DNA from: Palleronia salina
GTDB taxonomy: Bacteria > Pseudomonadota > Alphaproteobacteria > Rhodobacterales > Rhodobacteraceae
Direction of reading: 5' to 3'
DNA: 64,000 nt
Assembly (NCBI RefSeq): GCF_900141995.1
Contig: NZ_FQZA01000015.1
Location: 1 to 64,000, forward strand
Position numbers and translations under genes: made by a program. Below are positions 8,984-64,000 of the stretch, in pieces. Every line of letters starts with the position of its first letter. Position 1 is the first letter of the stretch. A model generated the notes under the pieces. The model ran no database searches, was not told the DNA's origin, and worked only from the letters and a program-made list of their open reading frames with translations.

Positions 8984-10822
8984 ATGTACCGGTCTTCGCA
9001 GGGTCATGCGTTTTCCAGAGAAAATTTGTCGCGACAGAAGGGTGGACGGGCCATAAGGCTCCGGATTTTGGCCACCATCGACCTGCACGGTCATCTGCGG
9101 GCGTTCGACTATGTCGCCGGACGGACGAAAGAGTCCGGTGGCCTCACGTCCCTGGCGCCCGTGATCGAGGCGATGCGCGACGGTCCGTGGCCCAGCATCC
9201 TTGTCGATGCGGGCGATTTCCTGACCGGGACGTTCCTGGCCGACCAGGCGATGGAGCAACCGGATGACGAGGAGAACCCCGTCATCGCCGCGATGAACGC
9301 GTTGCAATATGACGCGGTCGCCCTGGGTAATCACGACATGGACTTCGGGTTGAGGAGCCTTCGGACGGCACTGCGCGAGGCCGATTTTCCAGTCCTCGGG
9401 ACCAACCTGATCGCAGATGAGCCAGCCGGGCCGGTCGTCCGCACGGCGATGGTGACCAGGACGATGCACGGGGACGACGACGGGGAGCGGTCCATTCGGA
9501 TCGGGATCCTGTCTGCTCTTCCGCCTCACACGGTGGCCGAGCTCCGCCATGCCCACACGGACATGGCGGATCTTCGCATGGAGCAGCCGATCGAGGCGCT
9601 GACGCAAGGCCTGGACGATCTCAGATCCATGGGGGCCGACATTTGTCTCGTCCTGTGTCACGAAGGTCCGTCCTATGGCACGTCGAACCGGTCGGATCTG
9701 GTCGAGAACATCGCGGCGCTGGACGGCGTGGACGCCATCGTCATGGGCCATCGGCACGCCGTCTTTCCGGCGGAGGGTGCCCCTTCGGATGGGGATATCG
9801 GCGGGGTGCCTGCGATCATGCCGGGGTGCTACGGTCGTCACCTTGGGTGCATTGACCTGTCGCTGGAATTCGAAGGGAACGGCTGGCGCGTGCTGGGGCA
9901 CCAATCCCGGGTGTACGCGGCCCGCGGCGCCGTCGATACCGATGTGTCGCCCGCATTGCGCGTTCACGCGGTAACCGCGGACGCTCACGCCCGGGCAGAA
10001 GCCTCGGCCGGTCGAATCCTCGGTCGGATGCCGCGACCGGCCACGTCCTACTTTGCCCGCCTCGGGCGCGATCCGGGCACCATGCTCGTGGCGCGCGTCA
10101 TGCGCGACGTGGTGGCCGATGCGTTCCCCGACCTGGACCCGGCATACCTGATCGGGCTGGCGGGGCCGCCCCACACGGGCTGGCAGGGGGGACGCGATTC
10201 CTGGACGAACCTGCCGGCGGGCGAGGTGCGGCTGGCCCAAATGGCCCGGCTTCATCCCTACGCGGAACGGATTTGCGCCGTGACGCTCAGCGGTGACGAC
10301 CTGCGCGCGATCCTGGTGCGCAGTGCGGCCGGGTTCCGGTTCCTGCCGGATCATGCCGACGGGCGGGAAATCGTGAACGACCGGGTCCCGGGGCTCGAAC
10401 TGAGCCTGAGCCCCGATATCGACGTGACCTTCGACCTTTCCAGCGAGCGTCCCAATGGGCGGGTCCGTGACATCCGCGTGCGCGGCCGCGCGCTCGACTT
10501 CGACGCCCGGTACACCGTCGCCATGTCGTTCTTCCGCGCCTGCGGCGGGCGGGCGTGGCCCGGCTGCAGCCAGCAGAAGGTCCGTTACGGCACATTGGGG
10601 ACCGTGCAGTCCGCGCTGGTCGAGCGCGGGCTGGACCTGGTGGACGAATCCCTGTGGCAGCCGTGCTTCACGCTACGCTGGCCCACCACGGTGCGGCCCG
10701 TCTTCACGACCGCGCCCGAGGCCGCGCATGTCCTGGACCTGATCGAGGATCTGGGTCCGGTGACACAGGTCGATGGCGCGGGCGCGCGGGCCCGGTTCCG
10801 GCTGGGCGCCGGCGCCGGTTGA
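8984..10822 (+). CDS. 5'-nucleotidase / cyclic phosphodiesterase-like metallophosphatase
   Basis: This protein has the UshA/CpdB architecture: an N-terminal calcineurin-like phosphoesterase domain with IDLHGH (D33, H35), DAGDFLTG (D78), GNHD (115-118), LCHEG and GHRH, then a C-terminal 5'-nucleotidase domain from about residue 330. It should hydrolyse nucleotides or cyclic nucleotides. Unlike typical periplasmic family members it has no signal peptide. The start is uncertain: the ATG at 8984 gives 612 residues with a poor ribosome-binding site, while homology begins at RLRILATIDLHGH and a TTG at 9068 has AAGG upstream. The stop codon overlaps the promoter of the 4.5S RNA gene. Confidence 0.85.
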   Translation: MYRSSQGHAFSRENLSRQKGGRAIRLRILATIDLHGHLRAFDYVAGRTKESGGLTSLAPVIEAMRDGPWPSILVDAGDFLTGTFLADQAMEQPDDEENPVIAAMNALQYDAVALGNHDMDFGLRSLRTALREADFPVLGTNLIADEPAGPVVRTAMVTRTMHGDDDGERSIRIGILSALPPHTVAELRHAHTDMADLRMEQPIEALTQGLDDLRSMGADICLVLCHEGPSYGTSNRSDLVENIAALDGVDAIVMGHRHAVFPAEGAPSDGDIGGVPAIMPGCYGRHLGCIDLSLEFEGNGWRVLGHQSRVYAARGAVDTDVSPALRVHAVTADAHARAEASAGRILGRMPRPATSYFARLGRDPGTMLVARVMRDVVADAFPDLDPAYLIGLAGPPHTGWQGGRDSWTNLPAGEVRLAQMARLHPYAERICAVTLSGDDLRAILVRSAAGFRFLPDHADGREIVNDRVPGLELSLSPDIDVTFDLSSERPNGRVRDIRVRGRALDFDARYTVAMSFFRACGGRAWPGCSQQKVRYGTLGTVQSALVERGLDLVDESLWQPCFTLRWPTTVRPVFTTAPEAAHVLDLIEDLGPVTQVDGAGARARFRLGAGAG

Positions 10823-10846
10823 ATTCCCCCGCGCGCGCGGTTATCT
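10819..10846 (+). promoter_or_regulatory. Promoter of the 4.5S RNA gene
   Basis: TTGAAT at 10819-10824 and TTATCT at 10841-10846 are separated by 16 bases, and the predicted RNA 5' end lies 5 bases further on. The -35 covers the stop codon of the preceding gene. Confidence 0.6.
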
Positions 10847-10850
10847 GCGG

Positions 10851-10951
10851 GGTCGAGAGGCTGGCGCGGGCAGGCGCCTCGCCAACCCGGTCAGATCCGG
10901 AAGGAAGCAGCCGCAACGAGCCCCGCTTGGGTCGCTGTCCAGCCTCTCACC
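10851..10951 (+). ncRNA. ffs: Signal recognition particle 4.5S RNA
   Basis: This RNA scaffolds Ffh and guides membrane-protein targeting through FtsY. The ends pair as GAGAGGCTGG (10855-10864) with CCAGCCTCTC (10939-10948), giving a long hairpin. The apical Ffh-binding region is present at about 10891-10910 as CAGATCCGGAAGGAAGCAGC, with the invariant GGAAG and AGCA elements. Its position upstream of dnaX is the usual one in alphaproteobacteria. The receptor gene ftsY is also in the window at 36694. Confidence 0.95.
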
Positions 10952-11095
10952 CACTTCTCCTGACAATATGGGCCGCATCGGCCGTCGCGGTCCCTGGTCC
11001 AATCGCTCGGCCCGCCAAGCCGGGAAGCTGGGCGTGCGTCGCGCAAATCGCCGGACCGCATGGCGTCGCGTCCCAACGGCGCTATCCTCCCTGCG

Positions 11096-11479
11096 ATGAG
11101 CGACAAGAACCAGATGGCGCGGGATCGGACCCAATGGGCCGAGGACCGGACGGACTGGGCCGAGGATCGGACTGTTCTGGCGGCCGAGCGGACTTATGCC
11201 GGCTGGGTGCGCACCGGGCTGACGACCATGGTGGTGGCCATCGCTCTGCAGGGAGTGTTCGGCCCGGCCGAGCCGACCTGGCTGCCGAAAGCTGTCGCGT
11301 CGGTCTTCATCTTCGCGGCGCTGTGCATCTTTTTGGCAGGATGGTCCGAAGCCCGGATCAACCACGGCAATTTCACGACCCGCGATGCCCGTTGCCAGCC
11401 GGTGTGGCGCTTGCACCTCCTGACCGTCGTGCTCTGCGCCGGGACGGTATTCACATGCGTCGTGCTCTGGCTGCTCTAG
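11096..11479 (+). CDS. DUF202 (YidH-type) membrane protein
   Basis: The 127-residue protein has a polar N-terminus with tandem RT-W heptads (DRTQWAEDRTDWAEDRT), the DUF202 signature LAAERTYAGWVRTGLT, and three hydrophobic segments. DUF202 proteins are small inner-membrane proteins of unknown function. The ATG at 11096 starts the family domain cleanly, though no strong ribosome-binding site is visible; an in-frame ATG at 11060 is an alternative. It sits between ffs and dnaX, interrupting the usual direct adjacency. Confidence 0.8.
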   Translation: MSDKNQMARDRTQWAEDRTDWAEDRTVLAAERTYAGWVRTGLTTMVVAIALQGVFGPAEPTWLPKAVASVFIFAALCIFLAGWSEARINHGNFTTRDARCQPVWRLHLLTVVLCAGTVFTCVVLWLL

Positions 11480-53872: not shown

Positions 53873-54628
53873 TCAGAAGCGTTTGATGGTCACGCCGTCG
53901 GATTCGAGCCGCGCGCGCAGGGTGCGGGCGGCGGCGACCGCCGACGGCTCGTCCCCGTGCAGGCAGATCGTGTCGATCCGCGCCTCGATCTCGCGGCCCG
54001 AGGCGGCGATGATGGCGCCCTGTCGCACCATGGCGCTGATCCGCTCGGCCGCCTCGTCGGCATCGGTGATCATCGCGCCGGGCGTGCCGCGCTGGATCAG
54101 CGTGCCGTCGTCGTTGTAGCCGCGATCGGCGAAGATTTCGCAGGCCATGTTGGCGCCAAGGGCCTCGGCCGCCTCCTGCATGGGGGTCGCGGCCAGCACC
54201 ATGATGATGAGATCCGGGTCCACCTGCAGCGCCGCGTCATAGGCGCGCCGCGCCAGTTCGCCGTCCACCATGGCCATGTTCGACAAGGCGCCGTGCAGCT
54301 TGAGGTGTCGCACCGCGCCGCCGGCGGCCTTCGCCATCGCCTGCGCGGCGCCCAGCTGGTACTGCACCAGGTGGGCGACCTCGTCGGGGCGCATGGTCAT
54401 CTTGCGCCGCCCGAAGCCCTGGAGGTCGGGAAAGCCCGGATGCGCGCCGATGCCCACGTCGTTCTTCACCGCCCGCGCCATGGTCGCGGCCATCATGTCC
54501 GGATCACCCGCGTGGAACCCGCAGGCGATGTTGGCCGAGCTGATGATGTCCAGAAGCGCGGTGTCGTCGCCCATCTTCCAGGGGCCGAAGCTTTCGCCCA
54601 TGTCGGCGTTCAGATCGACGGTGGTCAT
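53873..54628 (-). CDS. pxpA: 5-oxoprolinase subunit A
   Basis: PxpA is the LamB/YcsF subunit of the ATP-dependent prokaryotic 5-oxoprolinase, which opens pyroglutamate to glutamate with PxpB and PxpC. The 251-residue protein has DLNADMGESFGPW, SANIACGFHAGDP, IGAHPGFPDLQGFGRR, VRHLKLHGALSN and CLHGDEPSAV, all standard. AGGAGACAC precedes the ATG, which overlaps the pxpC stop by ATGA. Gene order on the minus strand is pxpB-pxpC-pxpA, each coupled. Confidence 0.95.
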   Translation of the reverse strand: MTTVDLNADMGESFGPWKMGDDTALLDIISSANIACGFHAGDPDMMAATMARAVKNDVGIGAHPGFPDLQGFGRRKMTMRPDEVAHLVQYQLGAAQAMAKAAGGAVRHLKLHGALSNMAMVDGELARRAYDAALQVDPDLIIMVLAATPMQEAAEALGANMACEIFADRGYNDDGTLIQRGTPGAMITDADEAAERISAMVRQGAIIAASGREIEARIDTICLHGDEPSAVAAARTLRARLESDGVTIKRF

Positions 54629-55647
54629 TGCGTGTCTCCTGTCTCGGGGCGGCCGGCGGTGACGCCGGAGATGAGTTGATAGCTCAGCAGGTCGCGCATC
54701 TTGGCCGGGTCGCGCACCAGCGGGCGCACCGCCTTCTTCAGCGCGGTCAGCTGCGCGTCTTCGGACTGGTGAGCGGCGAGCGCGGCGTCGCGGTCGACGA
54801 AGGCAAAGCGCAGCTTCGCGCCCGGCGCGGCCTGCGCGGCCTTCGGCAGGTCCACGGGCAGGACGCTGCCGATGCGGGGATAGCCGCCGGTGGTCTGGCA
54901 CTCGGGCAGCAGGATGTAGGGCGTGCCCTCACCGGTCATCTGGATGTCGCCCGGCACGATGACCTCGGACACGAGACCCAGCTGGTCACGGGTGGCGAAG
55001 GGCGCGCCGTCGTGTTTCAGGCGCACGCCCTGCCGGTTGCCGCGCTGGTCCCGGGTGAAGGTCGTCTCGGTGAACCGCTCCAGGTCCTCGCGCGCGAACA
55101 GCGCCGTGTGGGTCGATGGCAGGATTCGGATGTCGCCGCCCTTGAACCGGTCCGAAACCTCGAGGATCTGCTCGACCGGGCCGCCCTTGTCCTTGCCCAT
55201 GGGCAGTTCTGTGCCGGTCTCCAGCTTCGGTCCCAACCCGAGGGCAAGGTGGGCCGCGCGGCTGCCGAGGATTGGCGCCGTGTCGATACCGCCGCCGACG
55301 CTCAGGTAGGACCACACGCCCGACGTCGCGGGGCCGAGCGCAAGGGTCTGTCCCGGCTTCACCAGGTGCGATGCCGACCAGCGCAGCGGCTCGCCGTCGA
55401 GGCTGGCGCGCATGGGCGCACCGGTCAGCGCGATGCGCGTCGGGGCATCGACGGTGAAGCTTCCGCCCATGGCCGACAGCTCCAGCGCGGCGAGATCGGG
55501 CGACTGCTCCAGCAGCGCGGCGCCCTCAAGCAACGCGAGCCGGTCGGCCGCGCCGCCGCGCGACAGGCCCTGGCTCAGCCAGCCGCGGCGGCCGAGATCC
55601 TGCACCGACGCGCCGGGTCCGATCTTGTGCACCGTAAGCTTGGTCAT
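54625..55647 (-). CDS. pxpC: 5-oxoprolinase subunit C
   Basis: The 340-residue protein matches PxpC (KipA/urea-carboxylase-like biotin-dependent carboxylase family): it begins LTVHKIGPGASVQDLGRRGW and has GGAADRLAL, SYLSVGGGID, LGSRAAHLALGLGP, FTRDQRGNRQGVRL and QMTGEGTPYILLPECQTTGG. It works with PxpB and PxpA. Start and stop overlap its neighbours by 4 bases, so translation is coupled. Confidence 0.95.
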   Translation of the reverse strand: MTKLTVHKIGPGASVQDLGRRGWLSQGLSRGGAADRLALLEGAALLEQSPDLAALELSAMGGSFTVDAPTRIALTGAPMRASLDGEPLRWSASHLVKPGQTLALGPATSGVWSYLSVGGGIDTAPILGSRAAHLALGLGPKLETGTELPMGKDKGGPVEQILEVSDRFKGGDIRILPSTHTALFAREDLERFTETTFTRDQRGNRQGVRLKHDGAPFATRDQLGLVSEVIVPGDIQMTGEGTPYILLPECQTTGGYPRIGSVLPVDLPKAAQAAPGAKLRFAFVDRDAALAAHQSEDAQLTALKKAVRPLVRDPAKMRDLLSYQLISGVTAGRPETGDTQ

Positions 55648-56402
55648 CGGATCGCCTCGTGGGTGGCGCCCGCGAGCGGTTTTTCGGCCAGGCGCTCCAG
55701 TTCGTCGGCAGAGACGGCCCGCAGCTGCACCTCGTCGCCGGGTGCGAAGGCGATGGGGCGGTCGGAATCGTCGGGCCGGAACGCCTTGAAGCGCGTCATG
55801 CCCACCTGACGCCAGCCCGTGGGTCCCGAGGTGGCGAAGATGATGAGCTGGCGCACAGCGGTGACCACGGCGCCTTCCTTGACGGTCGGGGTCAAGTCTT
55901 TCTGGCGGGCGAGATCCCAGTGGTCGTCCATCTGCCCGAGATAGGCCTGGCCCGGCGCGTATCCCAGCGCCAGCGCGCGCAGGGGCCGCGCGCAGATCTC
56001 GCGCACCGCGGCCTCGACGCTCAGACCGGCGAGCTCGGCCGCGTCGGCCAGCTGCGGGGCGTGGTCCCCCTCGAAGCTGGCCGGGACGGTCCAGAGCGTG
56101 CGGTTCGCCGGAAGATCCGCGGCCAGCCAGTCGCGATCCGCAAGGATTTCGCGCAGCCGCGCCTGCAAATCCGCCGGCGGCAAGGTCGCGGGGTCGAACG
56201 AGACATAGGCCGAGCACAGCGACGTTGCCGTTTCGCGCAGGCCGGGCCACCCTTCGGCATCGATCCGATCCCGGAAGGCGAGTGCCGCGCGATTCGCGGC
56301 GTCGTCCATCCGGTCGGAAAAGGTGATGAGCATCCCGTCCAGCCCCAGGGGCGTCAGGCGGGGCGGGTCGGAGCGGTCGAAAAGAGTATCCGGCAGGCTC
56401 AT
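55644..56402 (-). CDS. pxpB: 5-oxoprolinase subunit B
   Basis: The 252-residue KipI-like subunit is the first gene of the pxp operon. It contains GMLITFSDRMDDAANRAAL, CSAYVSFDPATL, ALGYAPGQAYLGQMDDHW with the conserved GF/GYxPGxxYL motif, and TGWRQVGMTRFKAF. The ATG at 56402 is preceded by CAGGGAA; the ORF extends further but into the promoter region. It is divergent from the TRAP genes. Confidence 0.93.
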   Translation of the reverse strand: MSLPDTLFDRSDPPRLTPLGLDGMLITFSDRMDDAANRAALAFRDRIDAEGWPGLRETATSLCSAYVSFDPATLPPADLQARLREILADRDWLAADLPANRTLWTVPASFEGDHAPQLADAAELAGLSVEAAVREICARPLRALALGYAPGQAYLGQMDDHWDLARQKDLTPTVKEGAVVTAVRQLIIFATSGPTGWRQVGMTRFKAFRPDDSDRPIAFAPGDEVQLRAVSADELERLAEKPLAGATHEAIR

Positions 56403-56432
56403 TTCCCTGGCGCCTCGTGTTACCTCAATCGA

Positions 56433-56466
56433 AACATTGACGATATGATGATAAAGTGTCAACGTT
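56433..56466. promoter_or_regulatory. Divergent pxpB/dctP operator-promoter region
   Basis: AACATTGAC (56433-56441) and GTCAACGTT (56458-56466) form an inverted repeat with one mismatch and a 16-base AT-rich centre (46 bases before the dctP start). The arms contain TTGACG toward dctP and TTGACA toward pxpB, both -35-like. The word TTGACGATA also occurs inside the marR operator at 59919-59927. Confidence 0.5.
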
Positions 56467-56503
56467 CCGCCAATAAAAACCGACACCAACAGGAGAGAGA
56501 CAC

Positions 56504-57472
56504 ATGACCAAGCTTCACCACAGCCTTTTCGCCGCCGGCCTTGCCGTGGCCGCCACGCCCGTGTTGGGCGACACGTGGGATTTCCCCACGCCCTACGGCG
56601 ACGGCATCTTCCACACCGCCAACATCCAGCAATTCGCCGAAGAGGTGGAGGCCGCGACCGATGGCGGGCTGGATTTCACCATCCACTCGGCCGGTTCGCT
56701 GTTCCCCCACGCCGAGATCAAGGGCGCGGTTCGGTCGATGCAGGTGCCGATCGGTGAGTTCTTCCTGTCGCGCCTGTCGAACGAAGACGCGGCCTACGGG
56801 CTCGACTCGCAGCCCTTCGTCGCCACCTCCTACGAGGACGCGCGCAAGCTGTGGGAGGCGCAGGAGCCCGTCATCACCGAGCTTCTGGCCGCCGAGGGGC
56901 TGATGCCGCTCTTCTCGGTCCCGTGGCCGGCGCAGGGTCTCTATACCACCGGCGAGATCGAGACGGTGGACGACCTGAACGGTCTGCGTTTCCGCGCCTA
57001 CAACGCCCAGCTCGAGGAATTCGCCGCGCTGGCCGGCGCCGCCCCGGTGCAGGTCGAGGCGCCGGATATCCCGCAGGCCTTCAGCACCGGCCAGGTCGAG
57101 GCGATGATCACCTCGCCCTCGACCGGCGCGAACTCGAAGGCGTGGGACTTCCTCAGCCACTACTCGCCCATCAACGCCTGGGTGCCGAAGAACCTCGTCG
57201 TCGTGAACCAGCGCGCCTTCGACCGGCTGCCCGAAGATCAGCAGCAGGCCATCATGGACGCCGCCGAAGCCGCCGAGCAGCGCGGTTGGGAGATGTCCAT
57301 GGCCGAGGCCGAGGAGAAGACGCAGGAACTGGCCGATAACGGCATCACCGTCTACGAGCCGTCGGAAGAGCTGGTCGCCGGTCTCCAGGCCATCGGGCAG
57401 GACATGCTCGAGACCTGGAACGAGAACGCCAGCGACGAGGCGAAGGAAATCCTCGACGCCTACAGGAACTGA
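56504..57472 (+). CDS. TRAP transporter substrate-binding protein (DctP family)
   Basis: The 322-residue periplasmic protein has a signal peptide (cleavage near residue 22, after AATPVLG) and the DctP fold: ANIQQFAEEVEAATDGGLDF, a central GLRFRAYN whose arginine (R164) normally binds the substrate carboxylate, and QAFSTGQVEAMITSP. AGGAGAGAG precedes the ATG. Placement opposite pxpBCA points to 5-oxoproline (pyroglutamate) as ligand, in line with characterised pyroglutamate-binding DctP proteins of Bordetella. A terminator separates it from the permease genes. Confidence 0.92.
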   Translation: MTKLHHSLFAAGLAVAATPVLGDTWDFPTPYGDGIFHTANIQQFAEEVEAATDGGLDFTIHSAGSLFPHAEIKGAVRSMQVPIGEFFLSRLSNEDAAYGLDSQPFVATSYEDARKLWEAQEPVITELLAAEGLMPLFSVPWPAQGLYTTGEIETVDDLNGLRFRAYNAQLEEFAALAGAAPVQVEAPDIPQAFSTGQVEAMITSPSTGANSKAWDFLSHYSPINAWVPKNLVVVNQRAFDRLPEDQQQAIMDAAEAAEQRGWEMSMAEAEEKTQELADNGITVYEPSEELVAGLQAIGQDMLETWNENASDEAKEILDAYRN

Positions 57473-57488
57473 TACCACGGTTCTCACC

Positions 57489-57518
57489 GCCCCCGGCCTG
57501 ATCGCCGGGGGCTTTTTT
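57489..57518 (+). terminator. Intercistronic terminator between dctP and dctQ
   Basis: GCCCCCGGC pairs with GCCGGGGGC around CTGATC, followed by six T residues. As an attenuator it would give more binding protein than permease, usual for such operons. Confidence 0.9.
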
Positions 57519-57537
57519 CTATCCAAGGGGGCAGGGG

Positions 57538-58062
57538 ATGCGACGGTTTCTTGATACGCTTTACTGGGGGGCGGGCTGGCTGGCCGCGCTGTCCATTCTC
57601 GGGATCTGCGCCGTGGTGACCCTTCAGGTGGCGCTGAACGTGATCTCGCGGCTGGGCGGCACGGGCGTGAACTTCACCATTCCCTCTTACGCCGATTTCG
57701 CCGGCTTCGCGCTGGCGGCGGCGACGTTCCTTGCCGCGGCTTCGACCCTGCGCCACGGCGTCCATATCCGGGTGAACCTGCTGGTGCAGCGGTTTCCGCC
57801 GCGGCTGACCTGGCTGTCCGAGGTCGCCGTCCTGGCGGTGGGGGCGGGCATGATCGCCATCGCCACCTACTGGACCGCCATGCTGGTGGGCGAAAGCTGG
57901 CACTACGGTGACCAGTCCACGGGGATCATCGCCGTGCCGCTGTGGATCCCGCAGATCCCCATGGTGGCTGGGCTGGGTCTTCTATGCGTGGCGCTGGTCG
58001 ATACGCTGGTCGAGGCCATCCGCACGGGCCGCCCCGTCCTGATCGACGAGGGGGATGCGTGA
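57538..58062 (+). CDS. TRAP transporter small permease (DctQ)
   Basis: The 174-residue protein has four membrane segments and the DctQ pattern (VALNVISRL, SYADFAGFALAAATFLAAASTLRHG, IRVNLL, STGIIAVPLWIPQ). It supports the large permease in sodium-driven uptake. It follows the terminator by 20 bases, with a GGGGGCAGGGG site before the ATG, and its stop overlaps the dctM start by one base (TGATG). Confidence 0.92.
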   Translation: MRRFLDTLYWGAGWLAALSILGICAVVTLQVALNVISRLGGTGVNFTIPSYADFAGFALAAATFLAAASTLRHGVHIRVNLLVQRFPPRLTWLSEVAVLAVGAGMIAIATYWTAMLVGESWHYGDQSTGIIAVPLWIPQIPMVAGLGLLCVALVDTLVEAIRTGRPVLIDEGDA

Positions 58063-59363
58063 TGAGCGACCCCGCCACGTTTGCCGTCCTGTTCGGGCTG
58101 CTGATCGCGCTGCTGGCCATGGGGCTGTGGGTCGCGCTGTCCCTCATGGTCATGGCCTTCGTCGCGATGGCTTTCTTCACCAACGCGCCCGAGGGCCTGG
58201 TGCTGGCCACCACGTTGTGGGGGCATTCGCACAGCTGGCCGCTGGCGGCGCTGCCGCTGTTCATCCTGATGGGTGAGATCCTCCTGCGATCGAGGCTGTC
58301 CGAGGACATGTTCAGCGGGCTCGCGCCATGGCTCGGCCGGGCGCCGGGGCGGCTGCTGCACGTCAACATCCTGGGCTGCGCGATCTTCGCCGCCGTCTCG
58401 GGCTCGTCCGCAGCCACCGCCGCCACCATCGGCAAGATGAGCGTGCCCGAGCTGAAATCGCGCGGTTACCCCGAAAGCCTGATCCTCGGCACGCTGGCCG
58501 GGTCGGCGACGCTGGGCCTGCTGATCCCGCCATCGATCATCCTGATCGTCTACGGCGTCGCGACCGAGCAGAGCATCGCGCGTCTGTTCGTGGCCGGTAT
58601 CCTTCCGGGCCTGCTGCTGGTCGGGCTGTTCGCGGGCTATGTCGCCACGCGCGCGCTGATGAACCGCGATCTCATCCCGGTCGAGGCGGGTAACTTTTCG
58701 CTGATGGAGAAGCTCAAGGCCTCGCGCCGGTTGGTGCCGGTGGTGTTGCTGATCGCGGGCGTGATCGGCTCGATCTACACCGGCATCGCGTCGCCCACCG
58801 ACGCGGCGGCGGTGGGGGTGTTCCTGTCGCTGATCCTGGCGTCCATGTCGTCGTCCTTCGGCTGGGCCGAGTTCAAGGCGGCGCTGATGGGGGCGACGCG
58901 AACCTCGTGCATGATCGCCTTCATCCTGCTGGGCGCCGCGTTCCTGTCCATCGCCATGGGCTTCACCGGGATCCCGCGCAACCTGGCGGCCTGGATCGGG
59001 TCGTTCGAGCTTCCGACCTACGCGCTGCTGGCGGCGCTGACGGTCTTCTTCATCATCCTGGGCTGCTTCCTCGACGGCATTTCCATCGTGGTGCTGACCA
59101 CGTCGATCATCCTGCCCATGGTCGAGGCGGCGGGGATCGACCGGCTGTGGTTCGGCATCTACCTGGTGCTGGTGGTCGAGATGAGCCAGATCACGCCGCC
59201 TGTGGGGTTCAACCTGTTCGTCATCCAGGGACTGACGGGGATCAACATCCTGCGCGTGGCGAAGGCGGCCTTGCCGTTCTTCCTGCTGCTGCTGCTGGGT
59301 GCCGCGCTGATCACCCTGTTCCCGGGCATCGTCACCGTGCTGCCCAACGCCATGGGCAACTGA
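58062..59363 (+). CDS. TRAP transporter large permease (DctM)
   Basis: The 433-residue protein has about twelve hydrophobic segments with the DctM motifs ALPLFILMGEILLRSRLSED, GSSAATAATIGKMSVPEL, GSATLGLLIPPSIILIVYG, SPTDAAAVGVF and the C-terminal EMSQITPPVGFNLFV. It is the transport channel of the system. It is coupled to dctQ and ends 18 bases before the converging marR gene. Confidence 0.94.
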   Translation: MSDPATFAVLFGLLIALLAMGLWVALSLMVMAFVAMAFFTNAPEGLVLATTLWGHSHSWPLAALPLFILMGEILLRSRLSEDMFSGLAPWLGRAPGRLLHVNILGCAIFAAVSGSSAATAATIGKMSVPELKSRGYPESLILGTLAGSATLGLLIPPSIILIVYGVATEQSIARLFVAGILPGLLLVGLFAGYVATRALMNRDLIPVEAGNFSLMEKLKASRRLVPVVLLIAGVIGSIYTGIASPTDAAAVGVFLSLILASMSSSFGWAEFKAALMGATRTSCMIAFILLGAAFLSIAMGFTGIPRNLAAWIGSFELPTYALLAALTVFFIILGCFLDGISIVVLTTSIILPMVEAAGIDRLWFGIYLVLVVEMSQITPPVGFNLFVIQGLTGINILRVAKAALPFFLLLLLGAALITLFPGIVTVLPNAMGN

Positions 59364-59381
59364 CGGCGACGGTGCCGCGGC

Positions 59382-59897
59382 TCAGAGCGACGCGGCGGCG
59401 CGGCTGGCCTGGTCGTATTGGCCGGACAATCCGCGCAACAGCGCCGCGGCCTCGCGCAGGGCCTGGCCGTCGACTCCGGCGCCGGGCAGCCCCTGCAACA
59501 GGCATTGCTGCCGTAGCGTGCGATAGCGGTCGCACAGGTCCCGGCCCGCGTCCGACGTCGTGTAGAACACCTCTTTGCCGCGCTTCTCGGCGGTCAGCAG
59601 GTCCAGCTTGACCAGCTTGCGCAGGGCGTAGGTGACGGTGTGGGTGTCCTCGATGTTTAGCAGGAAGCAGATGTCGCCCACGCGCTTTTCGCGGTCGCGG
59701 TGGTTGGCATTGTGCAGAACCAGGATTTCCAGCGGTCCCAGCTCGGGCATGCCGCTGGCCGCCATGCATTTCGTCATCCACCGGTAGAAGGCGTTGTGGG
59801 CCACGATCAGCCCGTATTCCAGCTCGGACATTTCCCAGGAATCGCCCTCGGCCAGGTGGCGGGACGACACGATGCGGCGGGTTGGCTGGTCGCTCAT
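59382..59897 (-). CDS. MarR-type winged-helix transcriptional regulator
   Basis: The 171-residue protein has a MarR-like winged helix: ELGPLEILVLHNANHRDREK, then the recognition region INIEDTHTVTYALRKLVKL-like LNIEDTHTVTYALRKLVKL and the wing AEKRGKEVFYTTSDAGRDL. The ATG at 59897 follows GGAAGGG. A perfect 10-bp inverted repeat lies just upstream, consistent with autoregulation, and a related word appears at the pxpB/dctP promoter, so the TRAP/pxp cluster is the likely target. Confidence 0.88.
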   Translation of the reverse strand: MSDQPTRRIVSSRHLAEGDSWEMSELEYGLIVAHNAFYRWMTKCMAASGMPELGPLEILVLHNANHRDREKRVGDICFLLNIEDTHTVTYALRKLVKLDLLTAEKRGKEVFYTTSDAGRDLCDRYRTLRQQCLLQGLPGAGVDGQALREAAALLRGLSGQYDQASRAAASL

Positions 59898-59910
59898 AAG
59901 CTGCCCTTCC

Positions 59911-59936
59911 TTGATAACTTGACGATAAGTTATCAA
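59911..59936. promoter_or_regulatory. marR operator
   Basis: TTGATAACTT (59911-59920) and AAGTTATCAA (59927-59936) are perfect inverted arms around GACGAT, 14 bases upstream of the marR ATG. Placement and symmetry fit a dimeric repressor site. Confidence 0.75.
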
Positions 59937-60041
59937 TAAGAGCGGGCCCTGGCGAGGCCGCGTCTCCACGACCGCGCATCGAGCGCGTGCGTCACGGTGC
60001 CGCCGGCGACCTAGGCCGGTCTCCGTCCGCGACGTGGGTGA

Positions 60042-60227
60042 CTATTCCGCAGGGGATGCGTCGACCTTTGCAAGTTGCCAAGCGGGCAGGGCGGCCGTGC
60101 CGATCTGCTGGTCAAGGTCGTCCGCAAGCCCGTCCAGTGCATCGGCCAGGCCGGAAAATCCGTTCCACCGTGCCAAGCGGGCGCTCAGCTTTATCCGATC
60201 ACGTTCGGTGGAAAGTTCGTTTCGCAT
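60042..60227 (-). CDS. Small basic/helical hypothetical protein
   Basis: A 61-residue frame reads MRNELSTERDRIKLSARLAR then FSGLADALDGLADDLDQQ, an amphipathic helical pattern. The ATG at 60227 has GAGAGC upstream; a TTG at 60260 would add 11 residues. No family is recognised. Codon use is less GC-rich than its neighbours. It could be a real small gene or chance. Confidence 0.45.
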   Translation of the reverse strand: MRNELSTERDRIKLSARLARWNGFSGLADALDGLADDLDQQIGTAALPAWQLAKVDASPAE

Positions 60228-60370
60228 CAGAGCTCTCGCTGTCAATTTCACTTGTGTCAACTTATGCTGACATTGGTGAATCCGGCTTTAACGAGACCGG
60301 TAAAACTTGACTCAGAGACGCCAAAGAGGCCGGGCGGCCAGAAAACGGGAATTTTCGGGATGGGGGGATT

Positions 60371-60446
60371 TGGTGGACCCTAGCGGGATCGAACCGCTGA
60401 CCTCCTGCATGCCATGCAGGCGCTCTCCCAGCTGAGCTAAGGGCCC
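60371..60446 (-). tRNA. trnA: tRNA-Ala (GGC anticodon)
   Basis: The minus-strand gene folds into a cloverleaf with acceptor stem GGGCCCT/AGGGTCC, including the G3-U70 pair that identifies alanine tRNAs, a GGTTCGATC T-arm, and an ATGGCAT anticodon loop (GGC; complement at 60411-60413). The 3' CCA is encoded (60371-60373). Confidence 0.97.
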
Positions 60447-60479
60447 TTGGTGCAGGGCCTCGACCCTGCGATGTGCGCC

Positions 60480-60508
60480 GTCTTAGAGACGGATCCGGGG
60501 GGGTTCAA
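60480..60508 (-). promoter_or_regulatory. Promoter of tRNA-Ala
   Basis: On the minus strand TTGAAC (60503-60508) and TAAGAC (60480-60485) are 17 bases apart, 34 bases before the tRNA 5' end, a good sigma70-type arrangement. Confidence 0.6.
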
Positions 60509-60544
60509 GCAGAAAAACGCGCCGATCCCCCCAAGTTCTCTGCA

Positions 60545-60877
60545 TCAGCTGTCGTCGTCGTTCGACGCCACGTCAGCGATGTCATCCAGCGAGACATCAT
60601 CGTCATCGTCGTCGTCTTCCAGGACGTCATCGCCCAGATCGACATCGGACGATTCGCTGTCGTCGTCCAGGATGACGTCCTCGTCGTCCTCGACCTGGTC
60701 CTTCTTCTTCGATTCCTTGTCGGCCTTGTCGGCCACCATGGTGCGGCCGCCCTTGCCGGTATCCAGCTGGACCACCTCGCCCGTGTAGGGGCTGACGACA
60801 GGGTTGGCGTTCAGATCATAGAACCGCTTGCCGGTCGTTGGGCAGACCCGCTTGGTTCCCCATTCTTCCTTGGGCAT
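60545..60877 (-). CDS. TIGR02300 (FYDLN acid) family protein
   Basis: The 110-residue protein has the TIGR02300 motif WGTKRVCPTTGKRFYDLNAN and PVVSPYTGE, followed by a lysine patch and an extremely acidic tail with runs such as DDDDDDD. The family is found in alphaproteobacteria and has no assigned function. The ATG at 60877 follows AAGGGG. It is divergent from the YgjP-like gene. Confidence 0.92.
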   Translation of the reverse strand: MPKEEWGTKRVCPTTGKRFYDLNANPVVSPYTGEVVQLDTGKGGRTMVADKADKESKKKDQVEDDEDVILDDDSESSDVDLGDDVLEDDDDDDDVSLDDIADVASNDDDS

Positions 60878-60995
60878 GAGAGACCCCTTCTTGCGTATGT
60901 CCGTGAAATCAGGCCGCCACCTGCCACAGGTGCGCAAGGCTGTCAAAGCCTTTCGCGGGCTGGTCTGGACCGTTGGTGAAAGCTATGCCGAGGAT

Positions 60996-61694
60996 ATGGG
61001 AGCACGCGATGAAGATGTGAAGGTCCTGCCCGGCGATCCGCCGGTCACCGTCGTGCTGCGCCGGTCGGGTCGCGCGCGCCGGATCAGCCTGCGGGTGTCG
61101 GGGCTGGACGGGCGCGTGACGCTGAGCCTGCCGCCGGGCGTCTCCGACAGCAGCGGCCTGGCCTTCGCGCAGGAGCGGTCGGACTGGATCCGGCAGCACC
61201 TGGCGAAACGCGTGACGCAATCCCCGGTCGTTCTGGGCGCGCATCTGCCCGTCCTGGGCCGGCCCCGCCGGGTCGAGGCGGGGCTCCGGGCGAAGATGTC
61301 GAGCGATTGCCTGACGGTGAACCGCGCACGCCCGGCCGGGCCGCAGGTGCAGAAGCTGGTGATGGACGCCGCGCGCGACGCGCTGGACGAGGCGAGCCAC
61401 CGTTATGCCCGCGCGGTGGAGCGCAAGGCCGGACGCATCACCCTGCGCGATACGCGGTCGCGCTGGGGGTCGTGCTCGTGGCAGGGCAATCTCATGTATT
61501 CGTGGCGCCTGGCGTTGGCGCCGCCCGACGTGCTGGATTACGTCGCGGCGCACGAGGTCGCGCATCTGGTCCACATGGATCATTCGCTCGCATTCTGGTC
61601 GGTGGTCGCGCGGTTGCGGCCCGACTGGAAGGTTCAGCGCGACTGGCTGCGCGCCCATGGCGCGACCCTTCACGCGTGGCGCTTCGACGATTGA
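60996..61694 (+). CDS. YgjP-like zinc metallopeptidase (DUF45, M48-related)
   Basis: The 232-residue protein has the DUF45 layout: a beta-rich N-terminus (RARRISLRVS), a linker with LGAHLPVLG, TRSRWGSCS, MYSWRLALAPPDVLDYVAAHE and the zinc motif HEVAHLVHMDHSLAFW with a third ligand. Members are thought to be metal-dependent proteases acting on unknown targets. The ATG at 60996 fits homology best, although its AGG ribosome-binding site is close; longer in-frame starts exist in the divergent promoter region. Confidence 0.87.
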   Translation: MGARDEDVKVLPGDPPVTVVLRRSGRARRISLRVSGLDGRVTLSLPPGVSDSSGLAFAQERSDWIRQHLAKRVTQSPVVLGAHLPVLGRPRRVEAGLRAKMSSDCLTVNRARPAGPQVQKLVMDAARDALDEASHRYARAVERKAGRITLRDTRSRWGSCSWQGNLMYSWRLALAPPDVLDYVAAHEVAHLVHMDHSLAFWSVVARLRPDWKVQRDWLRAHGATLHAWRFDD

Positions 61695-61717
61695 CGCCGC
61701 CCGGGCGCGGGACAATC

Positions 61718-62398
61718 ATGCCGCCCATGTTGATGCAGAACCGGCCCGAGCCGCCCCAGACCCAATCGGCCCATGACCGGGTTTACCGCGCGCTGCGGCT
61801 GCAGATCATGCATGGCGAGATCGCGCCGGGCGCGGCGCTGACCCTGCGCGGGATCGGCCGGCAGTTCGACGTGTCCATGACCCCCGCGCGCGAGGCCGTG
61901 CGCCGCCTCGTGGCCGAGGGCGCGCTGACGCTGTCGAGCTCCGGGCGCGTCACCACGCCCGAGCTTTCGCCCGACCGGATCGAGGAGCTGGCCGCCCTGC
62001 GCGCGCTGATCGAGGTGGAATTGGCCAGCCGCGCCCTGCCGCGGGCCCATATCGCCATGATCGACCGGATGCGCGTGGTGAACGAGTCGATCAGCCAGGT
62101 GATCGTGAAGCGAGATGCCGTGGGCTACCTGCGCCTGAACCTGGAATTTCACCGGATGCTCTACCTGCGCGCGCAGGCGCCCGCGATGCTGGCCATGGCC
62201 GAAACCGTCTGGCTGCAGCTGGGACCGACCATGCGCAGTCTCTACGGCCGGATGGGGCGCACCCAGGCGCCGCAGGGACACCGCGCGATCCTGGCCGCGC
62301 TCGAGGCCGGGGACGAGCCCGGGCTGCGGCTGGCCGTACGCAGCGACGTGACCCACGGGTTGCGCATGATCCTGTCGGGCGAGGGCGCCGCGCGCTGA
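61718..62398 (+). CDS. GntR family regulator with FCD domain
   Basis: The 226-residue protein has an N-terminal winged helix (RVYRALRLQIMHGEIAPGAA, LRGIGRQFDVSMTPAREAVRRL) and an all-helical FCD ligand domain with RALIEVELASRALPRAHIA, LNLEFHRMLY and GHRAILAALEAGD, including His ligands that bind metal and a carboxylate effector in this group. It converges with the aidB-like gene. Target genes cannot be deduced. Methionines at 61727 and 61733 are alternative starts. Confidence 0.9.
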   Translation: MPPMLMQNRPEPPQTQSAHDRVYRALRLQIMHGEIAPGAALTLRGIGRQFDVSMTPAREAVRRLVAEGALTLSSSGRVTTPELSPDRIEELAALRALIEVELASRALPRAHIAMIDRMRVVNESISQVIVKRDAVGYLRLNLEFHRMLYLRAQAPAMLAMAETVWLQLGPTMRSLYGRMGRTQAPQGHRAILAALEAGDEPGLRLAVRSDVTHGLRMILSGEGAAR

Positions 62399-62426
62399 GG
62401 GACCGGCGCGGGTGGGCCATTGTCGA

Positions 62427-62486
62427 GGGGGCGCCGCCCCCGTCCGCTGCGCGGACTCCCCCGGAGGTATTTACGGAAAGATGAAG
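62427..62486 (+). repeat. Hairpin pair plus dispersed motif, copy A
   Basis: Two adjoining perfect hairpins, GGGGGC-gcc-GCCCCC (62427-62441) and GTCCGC-tgc-GCGGAC (62442-62456), are followed by CCCCCGGAGGTATTTACGGA and then AAGATGAAG. I recall similar hairpin-plus-GGTATTT blocks in Rhodobacteraceae intergenic regions. It lies between gntR and aidB, which converge. Confidence 0.75.
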
Positions 62487-62502
62487 TCGGGTGGCGCGGC
62501 TC

Positions 62503-63913
62503 TTAGTCCGAGGTGAACAGGTGGGCATGCGCGCCGCGTCCTGCGCCGTCGGGCAGCGCCCCGCGCGTCCGGCCCCGCCCGGGGTCCAGGCGTGTCGCGC
62601 AGAAGGCCGGGGCCAACGGGTGTCCGGCCTCGATCAGTGCCGCGGCCGAGAGGAGCGTGGCCGCGCTTTCGGCGAACCAGCGCGCCTCGGGCTCGGGCAC
62701 CGCGCCCGGCCATTGCGCGCGATGCGCCGCCAGCCCCGCGTCGTAGAGGCCGTCATTGCCGCGCGCGGCGTCGAGCGTGGCGTCCAGCGCTTCGGCCGCG
62801 CCGGGCGCCCGCGCGAGGCTGCGCAGGATGTCGAGACAGATGACGTTGGCCGAGCCTTCCCAGATCCCGTTCAGCGGCGCCTCGCGGTAGAGCAGGGGCA
62901 GGGCGGTATCCTCGACGTAACCCATCCCGCCGAGCGCCTCCATGCATTCGCCCACCACCAGGGGGCAGAGCTTGTTGTTCAGGAACTTGGCCAGCGCGAC
63001 GCCGACCCGGGCGAAGGCGCGGTCCTGCGGATCGTCGCCGTCGAAGGCGCGCGCCACCCGCAGCGCCAGGGCGAGGCCGCCCGCCACGTCCAGCGCGAGG
63101 TCGTCCAGCAGCGCGGCCATGAGCGGCTGGTCGATCAGCCGCCGCTGGAACGTCGTGCGGTGGACGGCCCAATGATGCGCCTCGGCCAGCGCGGCGCGCA
63201 TGAGCCCCACGGGCGCCATCGCGGTGTCGAGCCGCGTGTGGTGCACCATCTCGACAATGGTGCGCACGCCGTCGCCCGGATCGCCCAGCGGCAGGGCCAG
63301 CGCGTCGCGGTAGACGATCTCGGCCGAGGCGTTCGACCGGTTGCCGAGCTTGTCCTTCAGGCGCTGGATCTCGATCCCGTTGCGCGCGTCCTCGAGCCAG
63401 CGCGGGACGAGGAAACAGCCGAGCCCCGAATCGGTCTGCGCGAGGGTCAGGAAGGCATCGGACATGGGCGCCGAGCAAAACCACTTGTGCCCGGTCAGCC
63501 GCCAGTGGTCGCCGTCGCGCGCGGCCCGGGTGCTGTTGGCGCGCACGTCCGATCCGCCCTGCTTCTCGGTCATGGCCATGCCGATGGTAGCGCCGCGCTT
63601 GGCGGTGACCGGCGCCACGGACGGGTCGTAGTCGCGGGACAGTGCCGCCTGTTCCCATGAGCCCATGCCCGGAGCGGCGGCCCTCAGCACCGGTTGCGCG
63701 GTGTAGGTCATGGTCAGCGGGCAGCAATGCCCGGGCTCGACCTGGCTGGCGAGGTAAACGCAGGCGGCATGGGCCTGGTGGCTTCCCCCGGGCTCCCACG
63801 CGCGGCTGTGGTAGCCCGCGCCGGCGGAGAGGGCCATGAACGCATGATAGGCCGGGTGGAAGGCGACTTCGTCCAGGCGGCGCCCGGCCGGGTCGAAGAG
63901 GCGCCTTGAAATG
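62503..63913 (-). pseudogene. aidB: AidB-like acyl-CoA dehydrogenase, 5' end lost to an insertion sequence
   Basis: About 470 codons match AidB (isovaleryl-CoA-dehydrogenase-related, alkylation response) to the stop at 62503: the frame upstream of the internal ATG reads LFDPAGRRLDEVAFHPAYHA, followed by GMAMTEKQGGSDVR, TGHKWFCSAPMSDAFL, RLKDKLGNRSNASAEI, GGMGYVEDTALPLLYRE and NGIWEGSANVICLD. Native AidB has 70-80 more N-terminal residues. Upstream of about 63914 the sequence turns into the end of an IS element, so the gene is broken unless rescued by an internal start such as 63837, which would lack part of the fold. Confidence 0.85.
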
Positions 63914-64000
63914 CCCCCTCTGAAGTGGTCCGCCCACTGGGATAGAATGATCCCGTCATGGAGAGGACCAGAGAATGGCTGGGAAGCGAGAGAAGCCCGA
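63914..64000 (+). mobile_element. Left end of an IS3-family insertion sequence (partial)
   Basis: The sequence after about 63914-63921 no longer encodes AidB on the minus strand. It begins TGAAGTGGTCCGCCCACTGG and continues into a transposase OrfA start at 63975. The end and the ORF spacing are those of IS3-family elements of the IS407-like type, as I recall them. The exact junction and any target duplication cannot be set because the right end is beyond the window. Confidence 0.65.
63975..64000 (+). CDS. IS3-family transposase OrfA (5' fragment)
   Basis: The first eight codons, MAGKREKP, match the start of OrfA helix-turn-helix proteins of IS3-family elements common in this group. GAGAGGA (63961-63967) is a suitable ribosome-binding site. 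The gene runs off the window. Confidence 0.6.

Follow-up and report, generated by a model that had tools for sequence, protein, structure and literature searches.

An IS3-family element adjoins a broken aidB-type gene at a contig end in Palleronia salina

AidB of Escherichia coli binds FAD and DNA and protects the cell from alkylation damage. We compared its known structure (3djl) and that of the acyl-CoA dehydrogenase 5ez3 with an aidB-type sequence at the end of the window, i.e. the whole stretch of 64,000 nucleotides analysed here, which corresponds to bases 1-64000 of contig C20 in the 30 contigs (3.57 Mb, estimated completeness 99.86%) of the Palleronia salina genome, denoted as G000. The alignment with 3djl begins at residue 72 of E. 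coli AidB, which matches residue 6 of the sequence studied, and covers residues 6-447 of the latter (E 1.4e-104). The alignment with 5ez3 begins at residue 98 and covers residues 4-450 (E 2.4e-122). The residues before 72 and before 98, respectively, have no counterpart in the sequence studied. The preliminary description, made from the sequence alone, had placed aidB homology on the minus strand with 70-80 N-terminal residues gone, and the start at residue 72 of 3djl, leaving about 70 missing, agrees with this. Our preferred reading, to which we assign a probability of about 0.9, is that an IS3-family element was inserted in an aidB-type gene or adjoins a deletion ending there, that the start of the gene was lost on this side and that the remnant is a pseudogene. 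The element would be a recently multiplied one, the loss would include both the start and the promoter, and we infer that the leftover sequence is inactive. Coordinates are given in Table 1.

Table 1. Features at the aidB-type remnant and the adjoining element. Positions are those of the window; a strand of "." denotes none assigned.
Feature	Position	Strand	Remark
aidB-type acyl-CoA dehydrogenase gene remnant	62503..63904	-	Without the first ~70-80 codons; AidB_N 61-156, ACAD domains; 97% identical protein in G006
First ATG/GTG/TTG (ATG) in the remnant frame	63837	-	A start here gives 444 aa
Two bases between G006-like DNA and element	63905..63906	.	Both differ from G006
Left end of IS3-family element	63907..64000	+	Runs on to 64232, the end of C20; 100% identical to 11 other left ends
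OrfA start (HTH_Tnp_1)	63975..64000	+	Continues to the contig end

The remnant comprises the last ~466 codons of the gene. Its match to the Pfam AidB_N profile (PF18158; 156 positions) covers just positions 61-156 (E 1e-31), and the ACAD middle and C-terminal domains (PF02770 and PF00441), both over their cut-offs, follow. Since the complete AidB N-terminal domain is lacking, we classed the remnant as a broken aidB-type gene and not as AidB. The named loci that match it best are mostly from Rhodobacterales. A profile search of the whole genome for a second AidB_N gene found none, the remnant being the sole match; because just one such gene was found, the IS event would most likely have cost G000 the activity of its only AidB-type enzyme, as far as the sequence can tell.

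The closest relative searched, denoted as G006, is 97.6% identical over window positions 53951-63904 (~10 kb). Its aidB gene (L093, frame 9800-11446, 548 residues) is full length and, from the position of the junction to the stop codon, encodes a protein 97% identical to that of the remnant. In contrast to the remnant, it has the whole AidB_N domain (1-156) and no element at the aidB site. The best matches to the left end of the element in G006 reach just 45.5 and 42.8 bits. Because aidB is full length in G006 and the left end has no close match there, the insertion is probably recent on the G000 lineage. Of the 80 best homologous loci retained from genome_contigs, 79 have alignments that start no later than residue 60 of the 548-residue G006 frame. 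The single locus without the N-terminal part, L170, begins at the end of its own contig, and a repeat may have broken this contig too. Nine of 13 other genomes of the genus have a close AidB relative (53-97% identity), and in all 8 of the genus loci other than that of G006 the aligned part starts between residues 9 and 19 of the same frame. Since the remaining 4 of the 13 have no close AidB relative, doing without AidB seems to be tolerated in the genus.

Over 467 codons the remnant differs from G006 by 48 bases and 14 residues, with no frameshift and a dN/dS of 0.18. For neighbour genes the corresponding values are 0.18 for one and 0.56 for another having very few changes. The residue differences of the remnant are unevenly spread, with 8 of the 14 lying in 17 codons of a dense patch (63652-63702) and 9 of the 14 in 63631-63702.

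At the junction, the last G006-like base is 63904 and the element starts at 63907 with TGAAATGCCCC. The switch from aidB to IS sequence in the preliminary description was thus real, but it had been put at about 63914, and the true junction (63904/63907) lies 7-10 bases before. The IS end and the OrfA start that had been described beyond the aidB homology are both present. After a simple insertion the expected 4-bp repeat would be GCCT (63903-63906). The mismatch to G006 at both 63905 and 63906 is a weak hint only, since nearby divergence is also high.

The OrfA start scores 49.9 bits against HTH_Tnp_1 (cut-off 24.1). Against NF033516 transpos_IS3, an 86-aa OrfA piece scores 45.5 bits (6.1e-12) and an 85-aa piece from a right-end contig 92 bits (4.2e-26); both are fragments and stay below the whole-protein cut-off of 160. 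The latter piece, the OrfB C-terminus, sits on another contig and is tied to the C20 copy through common repeats. These matches bear out the IS3-family identity proposed earlier. The ends of the element read TGAAATGCCCC and TGAGCTGCCCC, with TG...CA terminal inverted repeats (left TGAAATGCCCCCTCTGAAGTGGTCC; right, reversed, TGAGCTGCCCCAACCGAGTGGTCC). Contig C20 stops at 64232, i.e. 326 bases into the element and just 232 bases past the window, and the element accounts for the contig stopping where it does. Full-length relatives of the element measure 1218-1324 bp, 13 of the 15 being between 1227 and 1234 bp. As the middle is unassembled in G000, we took the length of ~1.2-1.3 kb solely from these relatives, and it falls within the 1.2-1.4 kb expected beforehand. 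The search of the window for mobile DNA was confined to PF01527.

Other copies in the genome, which the preliminary description had proposed to look for, are numerous. Copies of the 326-base left end lie at 12 places, far more than chance would give. They are 100% identical to it over 91-326 bases, and each stands beside unrelated DNA, at most 531 bases from a contig end. There are 11 right ends, and each stops no more than a few bases short of a contig end; 10 are identical over their common length and that of C22 is slightly different (99%), and two weaker matches on C13 (73% and 87%, short stretches) were left out of this count. A second scan of the window and of the contig ends, in which as many as 3 mismatches were allowed, again gave 12 left and 11 right ends. 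The assembly thus lacks one right end or more. From the identical copies and the lack of a close match in G006 we infer a recent IS3 burst in the G000 lineage. When G006 was used as an empty-site reference for the other copies, 2 of 23 flanks were searched and gave nothing beyond 54 and 43 bits. One right end, at 3255 of L028 (C2), adjoins DNA that by eye looks like the last part of a different transposase gene, and this copy may be nested inside another element; its flank has 6 bp (GTCGGG) in common with the left flank on C15.

In order to pair left and right ends by their target repeats, we compared all 132 left-right pairs. Repeats of 3, 4, 5 and 6 bp were matched in 1, 2, 0 and 1 pairs, respectively (2.1, 0.5, 0.1 and 0.03 expected). 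None of the matching pairs among the 132 involves C20, and the pairing was inconsistent and was dropped. In related full-length copies a 4-bp target repeat is found in 4 of 15 (0.06 expected), which indicates that the IS subgroup does make a target repeat. This count rests on a strict end pattern. A looser scan gave 4 bp in 6 of 27, with some ends off by a base or on the reverse strand; some of the copies with a 4-bp repeat in that scan have different end letters and so fall outside the strict pattern. An initial impression that the subgroup makes no target repeat, from four plasmid copies in which none was seen by eye, was abandoned in view of the 4 of 15. In the other 11 of the 15 strictly defined relatives (L204-L258) the 4-bp repeat is missing, which suggests that rearrangement is frequent around this subgroup.

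Beyond the IS, a short target duplication followed by the aidB 5' part had been anticipated, and neither was recovered. Not one of the 11 right ends begins with GCCT, and searches of the whole assembly with the AidB_N profile and with G006 DNA found no aidB 5' part beyond the remnant. Nor does G000 have a counterpart of the G006 sequence that starts ~6.7 kb upstream and includes the aidB 5' part, matches being at most 62 bits. The missing 5' part and the right ends without GCCT mean that the flank was deleted or rearranged, or that its partner piece is unassembled. We lean slightly toward the former, in which the DNA beside the C20 copy was deleted or rearranged, by adjacent deletion or recombination between copies, and the 5' part is truly lost. 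The missing G006 counterpart speaks for this, as does the missing GCCT in a subgroup that makes a 4-bp repeat, absence of the repeat being common there. PMC11708052 reports that target repeats are often missing because of adjacent deletions or because copies have recombined with each other. On the other hand, at least one right end is unassembled, and the genes upstream in G006 were not found beside aidB in any of the 8 other relatives' loci, so that no deletion is needed to explain their absence. A block of xylose genes lies ~6.7 kb from aidB in G006 (L093:1-3311) and on C14 in G000 (L189:12504-16601), 92-97% identical; by their sequences, G000 and G006 differ here by a rearrangement. A simple insertion, with the 5' part and the right end of the element on an unassembled or dropped piece, is a tentative second choice. 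It would explain why right ends are one fewer than left ends, and short pieces may have been removed, since the shortest contig has 2394 bases; however, it has to be set against the high estimated completeness and the absence of both the 5' part and the preceding G006 genes from the assembly.

There are two further explanations. A misjoined contig end is very improbable: C20 does end within a repeated element, but the junction is the exact element end, common to 12 copies beside different DNA. It is about as doubtful that a functional enzyme, shortened or chimeric, is still produced from the remnant. As had been noted, the reverse frame stays open through the IS end (526 aa); from the stop at 64086 to the ATG at 63837 it runs for 82 codons without interruption, and non-standard candidate starts occur in it (CTG 63876, ATT 63912, ATT 63948, ATC 63951). 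There is a slim chance that translation begins at the ATG, or at a non-standard codon at the element end, and that the resulting shortened acyl-CoA dehydrogenase has taken on another role. The 444-aa product would keep the ACAD middle and C-terminal domains, and the intact frame and dN/dS of 0.18 fit a remnant under selection as well as the recent break that we prefer. Nevertheless, a start at 63837 would lose ~95-104 residues in the G006 frame, depending on the G006 start codon. Because none of the 82 upstream codons is ATG, GTG or TTG, a chimeric protein, which the preliminary description had thought conceivable, appears unlikely. A promoter and terminator scan of L017:3700-4233 found nothing, including, by this simple scan, no sigma-70-like promoter near the junction. 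The broken gene is further favoured by the identical left end beside unrelated DNA at 12 places, the intact G006 gene in a genome without a close left-end match, and the single AidB_N match in G000 set beside N-terminal parts in 79 of the 80 best homologous loci.

Thus, the single AidB_N gene found in G000 would have been broken by an IS3 burst in one lineage. Gene breakage of this kind is ordinary and leaves the general understanding unchanged. A plasmid search for records more than 90% identical to the 531-base left part returned none. Among the plasmid records, the nearest elements are those of Rhodobacterales plasmids (NZ_CP018078.1, NZ_CP136707.1 and NZ_CP072995.1), annotated as IS3 family transposase, which are 77.6-78.3% identical to the left part over 99-100% of its 531 bases and 78.1-79.1% identical to the right part over 97-98% of its 348 bases. 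Their full copies are ~1.23 kb long and have GCCCC...GTGGTCC ends, whereas the G000 element reads TGAAATGCCCC and TGAGCTGCCCC.
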